The notes beneath the pieces were generated by a model. The model did not search any database, was not told where the DNA came from, and saw nothing but the letters and a program-made list of their open reading frames with translations. From Nitrospira sp. (lineage in GTDB: Bacteria > Nitrospirota > Nitrospiria > Nitrospirales > Nitrospiraceae), in contig JARFXR010000002.1 in NCBI GenBank assembly GCA_029194535.1, forward strand, positions 930,001 through 994,000: 64,000 nt of DNA. Direction: 5' to 3'. The translations under genes and the position numbers were made by a program. The number at the start of each line of letters is the position of its first letter. The first letter of the stretch is position 1. Positions 4,912 to 6,805 of the stretch are shown piece after piece.

Positions 4912-5775
4912 TTAGAGGCCGCCTTCGCGGTTGTCACACCCCAGAATCTCGATAAACCGGCTCAGGCGGGACTTTCGGATCGGATCATCGAGTTTGGCGT
5001 AAATGGCCAAGAGATTCTTGGTCATGCGCGAGAGGATCGCACGGACGGGGCTTTGTTGCAGATATTTCTCGTCGAACCCGTATCCGGCTTCCGTGAGAAA
5101 TCGCTGACAGTTCTTCTCGGTGAGCAACGCGCCGCCATTGAAGCAATCGACGAAGATCTTATATCGATCCGACTCATACTTGACGAGGAAATGTCCGGGC
5201 ATGCCGATGCCGTGTACCGGAAGCCGCAGTCGCTTCCCAATCAGCAGATACACGACCGATAGACTGATGGGAATACCGGTTCGCCGGTCGATGACGCGGT
5301 TCAGATAGCTGTTTTCGACCTCGTAATAGTTCTTGGTATTCCCCTTGAATCCCTGCTCCGTGAACAGATACCGATTCAGGGTCTTGACGGTTTCTTCCCC
5401 TGATGCCCGCGGACCGATGCGATCTTGCACCTCTTGGGCCATCTCGTCGAGCAACCGGGTATAGACCGGTACGTCAAGCGAGGGATACACATACCGCGCG
5501 ATCAAGAAGCCGCCCTGCTCCAAATCCACCTGATCATCGCGGACCGTAACGAGCCGCAGGAGCTCGTCTTCGAGCTTGCCGCCTCGAATCTCCTCCAAAA
5601 CGGACGCAATCCGTTCAGCCATTTCCGGCTGCTCGATTTCAGCTTCCTGGAGGAGGGGGACCGCGGAAGGACCGATGTCGATCAACTTGTCGCTGATCGT
5701 CTGGACAATCCTTTCATCCTCATCGGCTAGCAATCGGATGAGGGCCCTGATCTGGCTTTCGGGAATGACCACCAT
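4912..5775 (-). CDS. SirB1-family transglutaminase-like protein
   Basis: 287 residues. The C-terminal two thirds match the SirB1/transglutaminase-like core: NYYEVENSYLNRVIDRRTGIP, PISLSVVYLLIGKRL, GIGMPGHFLVKYE and FVDCFNGG. The N-terminal about 90 residues look like a helical, HEAT-like region (LADEDERIVQTISDKL). The biochemical role of SirB1 proteins is poorly defined. ATG at 5775 has AGAGAG close upstream. A possible TTGACC/TAGAGA promoter would place the transcript start about at this ATG. The stop abuts a foldback repeat. Confidence 0.82.
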   Translation of the reverse strand: MVVIPESQIRALIRLLADEDERIVQTISDKLIDIGPSAVPLLQEAEIEQPEMAERIASVLEEIRGGKLEDELLRLVTVRDDQVDLEQGGFLIARYVYPSLDVPVYTRLLDEMAQEVQDRIGPRASGEETVKTLNRYLFTEQGFKGNTKNYYEVENSYLNRVIDRRTGIPISLSVVYLLIGKRLRLPVHGIGMPGHFLVKYESDRYKIFVDCFNGGALLTEKNCQRFLTEAGYGFDEKYLQQSPVRAILSRMTKNLLAIYAKLDDPIRKSRLSRFIEILGCDNREGGL

Positions 5776-5841
5776 GATCAACTCTCTACCACCCCGTCGG
5801 CAAGATGGTCAACGCCGTAACCGGTGTAGGATCGCCGCGCC

Positions 5842-6029
5842 CTAGGAGCCTGTCCGACCATGACCGTTCTACTGCGGCAAACGACCTGCGGGCACCTGCT
5901 TCGTTCTCGGCCCGGAAAAATCCTCAACGTATTCCAGCGAATACGCTTCCGGTTTTTCGAGCCTGCGGTCTTGCATTTGCCCGCACCTCATTTGCCTCGT
6001 CACGAAGGCAATGTCGGACAGGCTCCTAG
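5842..6029. mobile_element. 188-bp foldback element with perfect 17-bp terminal inverted repeats (MITE-like)
   Basis: Left end 5842-5858 (CTAGGAGCCTGTCCGAC) and right end 6013-6029 are exact reverse complements. The arms continue as a diverged palindrome inward (for example TGTCCGACCATGACCG against TGTCCGACATTGCCTT) to a central CGTATTC-CAGC-GAATACG hairpin. It encodes nothing. The right terminal repeat contains the TAG stop codon of the ABC permease gene (6026-6028), and the left end lies 66 bases upstream of the SirB1 start. The structure fits a non-autonomous miniature element or a large REP/BIME-type palindrome. Confidence 0.75.
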
Positions 6030-6805
6030 CCCATCGCCCGGCGGAACGCCTTGGCGCCGCCGTACAGACACAGCGCATCGAAAACGATCATCACCAATAC
6101 GACCATCCCCACGTGCGGAAGCGCGTCCGCCCAGTTGGAGAGAATCAACGGCCGCACGGCATCGATGGCCCAGGTCATGGGATTGAACCGGGCAAGAAAC
6201 CCCATCCATCCCGGCATCGCCGCCAGCGGCACCAACGCCGAGCTCAAGAATATCATGGGCAGAGACAGAAAGCCGAGCACCGAGAAGAAATCGCCGTGAC
6301 TCTTGACGGAGAAGGCCATGGCCATGGAAATGGCCGTCAATCCGACGCCGAACAAAACGCCGATCAACAAGATGACCGCGATGCCGAGCAAACCGGTCGC
6401 CGGGCGGACGCCGAACAGGAAGGCTACGCCCAAGATGACCAGCACTTGCAGCGAAGTGATCGTCATCACGAAGAGAAATCGGCTGAGAATGACGGAGCTT
6501 CGGCGGATCGGGGTGGACATCAGACGCTCAAGGAACCCGTTTTCCTTGTCGAAGAGGAGATCAACCCCTCCGGCCAGGCCGTTGTTGAGCACCGTCATGA
6601 CGACGACGCCGGCCGCAAGGAAACTGATATAGTTCGGAGCCTGCATGACCTGCGAATCTGCGGCGCGCTGGAACAGATTGCCGAAAAAAATCAGCCAGAA
6701 CAGCATCGGCTGGACCAGCGTGAACAGCATGCTGAATTTTTCACGGCTCAGCCGGCGAACCCACCGCATAGTCAAGGCCTGAATTTCCTGCCAATACTCG
6801 CTCAT
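6026..6805 (-). CDS. ABC-2 type transporter permease
   Basis: 259 residues with six hydrophobic segments and the ABC-2 membrane domain pattern (FTLVQPMLFWLIFFGNLF, DKENGFLERLMSTPIRRSSVILSR, LVPLAAMPGWM, NPMTWAIDAVR). It should form the membrane channel of a drug/lipid-type exporter with the ATPase encoded 26 bases upstream. The transported substrate cannot be read from sequence. Its stop codon is inside the terminal repeat of the 188-bp foldback element. Confidence 0.92.
   Translation of the reverse strand: MSEYWQEIQALTMRWVRRLSREKFSMLFTLVQPMLFWLIFFGNLFQRAADSQVMQAPNYISFLAAGVVVMTVLNNGLAGGVDLLFDKENGFLERLMSTPIRRSSVILSRFLFVMTITSLQVLVILGVAFLFGVRPATGLLGIAVILLIGVLFGVGLTAISMAMAFSVKSHGDFFSVLGFLSLPMIFLSSALVPLAAMPGWMGFLARFNPMTWAIDAVRPLILSNWADALPHVGMVVLVMIVFDALCLYGGAKAFRRAMG

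Follow-up and report, generated by a model that had tools for sequence, protein, structure and literature searches.

A 188-bp foldback on a permease stop codon in Nitrospira: very probably a non-autonomous element with IS1182-type ends

At positions 5842–6029 of the window, the whole 64-kb stretch of Nitrospira DNA analysed here, lies a 188-bp foldback whose right end coincides with the stop codon of an ABC-2 type permease, raising the question of what this element is and how it came to lie exactly on a stop. The earlier note had described perfect 17-bp reverse-complement ends and inner arms that pair only partly, and both descriptions hold: the outer arms (5842–5858 and 6013–6029) are 100% complementary over 17 nt, and two inner arm pairs are 75–79% complementary. 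From its sequence, the 17-bp end is best read as CTAG, a presumed 4-bp target duplication, followed by a 13-bp terminal repeat, GAGCCTGTCCGAC. With this split, the element proper would span 5846–6025 (Table 1).

Table 1. Features of the foldback and its host gene, in window positions.
Feature	Position	Strand	Remark
Left CTAG of the presumed target duplication (4 bp)	5842–5845		IS1182-family elements that share these ends are CTAG-flanked too
Left terminal inverted repeat, GAGCCTGTCCGAC	5846–5858	+	Together with the adjoining CTAG, matches each end of the L328 IS1182-family element at 17/17 bases
Non-coding interior; imperfect foldback, helices preserved by compensatory changes	5859–6012		Folding and covariation counts
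Core common to the 128-bp sister family	5898–5974	+	Limits approximate, transferred from the family consensus; 53/78 identical between the two consensus sequences
Right terminal inverted repeat	6013–6025	−	Element positions 168–188 are 21/21 identical to one IS end in L328
CTAG, right copy	6026–6029		6026–6028 is the permease stop (TAG, minus strand)
ABC-2 type permease, host gene with its stop as target	6026–6805	−	ABC-2 transporter PF01061; stop after the same residue in 80/80 relatives
Decayed right end of a sister-family element (128 bp), immediately behind the 188-bp foldback	5801–5822	−	Alignable to the right ends of the complete sister elements that L110 and L079 carry at this stop

The ends of the foldback recur in transposons that encode their own transposase. 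In genome G017, inverted GGAGCCTGTCCGA sites 1.64 kb apart enclose a 483-aa transposase that scores 365.6 bits against the NCBIfam IS1182 model NF033551 (cut-off 270). The ends of this element, CTAGGAGCCTGTCCGACATT, match the left 17 and the right 21 bases of the window's foldback exactly. CTAG is found at both flanks of this complete element, and likewise of two additional G017 copies that have an in-gene stop; G023 carries a decayed relative. The annotated IS1182-like element ISMno38, in a plasmid-borne copy (L369), has CTAGGAGCCCGTCCGAGTAA at both ends and CTAG on both sides; the end pair was not found in another ISMno38 record, L370. Two more IS1182 records were read: L372 shows CTAGGAG at both ends, and L371 has CTAG at one flank and CAAG at the opposite one. 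The foldback thus shares its terminal inverted repeats with an autonomous IS1182 member, as a MITE does. An autonomous partner in the same genome is usual for a MITE but not required, and a search of the foldback's own genome (G000) at E 1e-60 found no matching-type IS1182 transposase.

A MITE is also expected in many dispersed, non-coding copies of fixed size, and such copies exist. The own genome contains ten matches covering at least 158 of the 188 bases, the window copy and nine others, in addition to fragments. Pairwise identity among nine of the long copies there is 78–94% (36 pairs). Aligned copies have the ends CTAGGAGTCTGTCCGAGT(A/C)AT in common and nothing outside them; the termini of this long family read CTAGGAG(C/T)CTGTCCGAGTAAT. 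Among the matches listed in a search of 41 genomes, at least 13 genomes have a copy that spans 165 or more of 189 bases, and G001, of the same genus, has no match. A plasmid collection searched with the 188 bp gave no match either. The earlier note had proposed searching the genome and its relatives for the 188 bp, with a single copy throughout counting against a mobile element; the dispersed copies answer that concern. Because the copies differ to this extent and no partner transposase was found, the long family looks old in its own genome, judging from sequence divergence. Own-genome matches to just one end (L026, L030, L034 and others) were set aside as fragments or chance, with no transposase recognised. 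Assembly gaps (N runs) or contig ends lie inside foldback elements at L133 and in G007 contigs C2, C10, C15 and C26.

The right end had been thought to supply the TAG stop of the permease. The coincidence of the TAG with the element's right end stands; its origin in the element does not. All 80 related permease loci stop after the same residue (TAA in 34, TGA in 29, TAG in 17). Since they end at the same codon, the TAG, as read from this alignment, is the gene's own stop, which would have lain within the CTAG target and been retained. No element is present at the stop in 74 of the 80 loci. In the other six (L079, L106, L108, L109, L110, L133), an element of the 128-bp sister family either lies at the stop itself or follows it by 6 bases, and several of these six are probably one inherited insertion.

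Empty sites, the lack of which would likewise have spoken against mobility in the earlier note, were found at the stop of a PhoU_div/DUF47 gene. In the own genome this site reads CACCA-CTAG-element-CTAG-ATCAAC. The empty site in G001, with both flanks aligned, is CACCA-TTGA-ATGGAC, and the corresponding four bases are CTAA in G002 and CTGA in G003 and G004. An unoccupied CTAG occurs here only in the more distant G011 and G016. These sites appear compatible with a 4-bp CTAG duplication, with near relatives carrying TTGA, CTGA or CTAA instead. At a debranching-type gene, the alignment with G001 reaches the stop (CTAA) only, and the far flank is unaligned.

The position on a stop codon can be considered against the distribution of CTAG itself. 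CTAG occurs 37 times in the 64-kb window, versus about 234 expected from base composition. The 35 that do not belong to the foldback were tested: 14 coincide with the end of an open reading frame of 100 codons or more, 11 fall within frames of at least 150 codons and 10 lie elsewhere; the frames in these counts are mechanical, and some may not be genes. Among 50 long copies, 20 have a frame of at least 100 codons ending exactly at a terminus, with 11 stops at the left and 11 at the right (two copies have both), compared with about 0.08 per other offset. Because the rate among copies (20/50) equals the background for CTAG (14/35), CTAG targeting alone suffices to explain the position; special targeting of stop codons beyond CTAG was considered and is unneeded. 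CTAG is present at both ends of 15 of the 50 copies, at one end of 26 and at neither end of 9. It could belong to the inverted repeat rather than to a target duplication, since non-CTAG variants are rarely equal on both sides.

Based on these observations, we consider it very likely that the foldback is a non-autonomous MITE that belongs to the IS1182 family, in its ISMno38-like part, and was inserted at CTAG by an IS1182-family transposase acting in trans. Size and lack of coding had already suggested a MITE; the dispersed copies, the CTAGs at the ends, the empty sites and the insertion sequence with the same ends support that assignment. An IS1182-family DDE transposase would cut at the 13-bp GAGYCTGTCCGA(C/G) ends, and the element would be joined into CTAG with duplication of the four bases, as its anatomy and the empty sites suggest. 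Insertions would fall on stops because CTAG is scarce and a large share of CTAGs are C-TAG stops. The duplication would rebuild TAG on either side, so that the host gene would lose nothing and be unharmed. The scarcity of CTAG except as C-TAG stops thus offers a simple, testable reason for some small mobile elements lying exactly on stop codons, and a 4-bp duplication that would rebuild the stop is the second half of this account. No description of the Nitrospira long family was found in the open-licence literature searched.

The 128-bp sister family has a core in common with the long family (Table 1), and its ends, TAGCAGG(A/C)TG(C/T)TGA(A/C)AAAG, are unlike those of the long family. It is present in 23 of 25 genomes searched. 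Of eight transposase loci fetched, L291 in the own genome, five loci in G017 and one in G007 are IS1182/IS5-like insertion sequences, different from those above, with sister-type ends; locus L308 has no such ends. These insertion sequences have CTAG on both sides, except the own-genome copy, which has CTAG and CTAA. L291 (G000:C1, ~164509–165874) is an intact-looking 1.37-kb insertion sequence with ends equal to those of the 128-bp family and a transposase just under the IS1182 and IS5_4 cut-offs. In the 128-bp elements themselves (L106, L079, L231 and others), YTAR is confined to the left and a target duplication is absent, and they meet stops of open reading frames on the left only (14/41, versus 0/41 on the right).

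Both families have used the same stops. At the stop of the downstream transglutaminase-like gene, many relatives carry sister elements, and L129, L146 and L149 carry none; in L151 a long element begins where other species have the 128-bp element. In the window, the decayed sister right end at 5801–5822 suggests that the permease stop was probably occupied twice, by a sister element and by the long element. General nesting of long elements in sister elements was rejected: there are 12 flank matches in 4 of 50 long copies (L001, L252, L277 and L285), versus 5 in two copies in the far control.

The fold of the element is strong and conserved. As DNA with 10-nt flanks, the window element folds at −48 kcal/mol (z = −5.2), and as RNA on the permease strand at −106.5 kcal/mol (z = −10.2), with 0 of 200 shuffles as low in each case. 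In the long family (15 copies, 11 genomes), 17 of 56 pairs show a compensatory change, versus 6.3 after shuffling (none of 500 shuffles reached 17), and in the sister family (19 copies) 18 of 40, versus 6.7; these shuffles ignore the relatedness of the copies. Slid structures, used as a control, also fall well below the real fold in both families. For 44 of 45 copies of the long family and 36 of 38 of the 128-bp family, the strand opposite the core orientation gives the better RNA fold. We do not claim strand-specific selection on RNA, as the copies share ancestry and the variable pairs give 17 versus 14 G-U cells per strand. An Rfam search of window positions 5700–6150 gave no match up to E 1. 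Conservation of the fold by compensatory change is more than a plain MITE requires and counts against a plain-MITE reading. The hairpin interior of the long family is most likely kept through tolerance or through RNA-level effects at gene ends. A structured core, with conserved pairing beyond the needs of a plain MITE, has apparently been carried through the Nitrospirales by two transposon end-types. We regard as speculative, and rather unlikely, a broader picture in which one covarying hairpin core is packaged between the ends of two IS1182-type transposons whose transposases may swap hairpins at stops, turning stops across the order into docking sites at which one structured 3′ element could be exchanged for another.

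The conserved fold also bears on readings that do not involve an IS1182-type insertion. An immobile host regulatory 3′ element, that is, a hairpin at the mRNA end under selection at gene ends, would account for the strong hairpin, the compensatory changes in both families, the placement at stops and a terminator-like site on the permease strand (1 found versus 0.3 expected). It is nevertheless highly improbable: the copies adjoin unrelated genes and are absent at the same gene in relatives, their ends match transposon ends, their frequency at stops equals that of CTAG in general, and the helices have no clear strand preference by the G-U counts given above. Just as improbable is a REP/BIME-type element mobilised by a Y1 (RAYT) transposase through recognition of the hairpin and a flanking tetranucleotide, although the imperfect hairpin with fixed mismatches resembles such elements, as does the sister family with its one-sided YTAR, missing target duplication and left-sided stops. 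G014, which has the most first-look sister candidates (205), has no Y1 match at E 0.001. Among 25 Y1 loci, one (L169) has a sister match and none a long element, and the element ends equal those of DDE insertion sequences. The large REP/BIME unit that the earlier note had offered beside a MITE is therefore not supported.

A third alternative keeps a transposase of this family and changes the route. The long element may have displaced most of an older sister hairpin at the permease stop, hairpin for hairpin, much as IS1272 of the IS1182 family reportedly takes the place of stem-loops and leaves no target duplication (PMC5678879). The sister right end surviving at 5801–5822 and the six relatives with a sister element at the same stop are consistent with such an exchange. 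An identical picture would result, however, if the long element had inserted at the sister's left CTAG and a deletion had followed; the DUF47 site has no sister element in the relatives read, and sister remnants lie near few other long copies. We consider replacement unlikely, and insertion of a MITE at CTAG remains the preferred reading.

REP/BIME and ERIC elements are dispersed imperfect palindromes often located just behind genes, as is the foldback described here. The window family differs in having transposon-type ends, and no RAYT link was found for it. IS5 of E. coli has a 4-nt YTAR target, most commonly CTAG, a tetranucleotide described as under-represented in bacterial genomes (PMC5493358); the target is similar to that of the window element, and IS5 differs in being autonomous and in its ends. 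MITEPsy1 of Pseudomonas syringae (PMC3189936) is likewise small and non-autonomous and duplicates a 4-nt CTAG or YTAA target, but it is tied to ISPsy2, is 100 nt long and has other terminal repeats. Within the IS1182 family, one member, ISPse1, has a 4-bp repeat (PMC3281130). IS1272 of Staphylococcus belongs to the same family as the transposons that share the long family's ends, and palindromes matter in its transposition; it differs in replacing stem-loops with no target duplication (PMC5678879), whereas CTAG is present at one or both ends of most long copies. ISMno38 of Methylobacterium nodulans has ends, CTAG-flanked in one copy, that are nearly those of the long family; ISMno38 encodes a transposase, whereas the window element, 180 bp long without the presumed CTAG duplication, encodes none.
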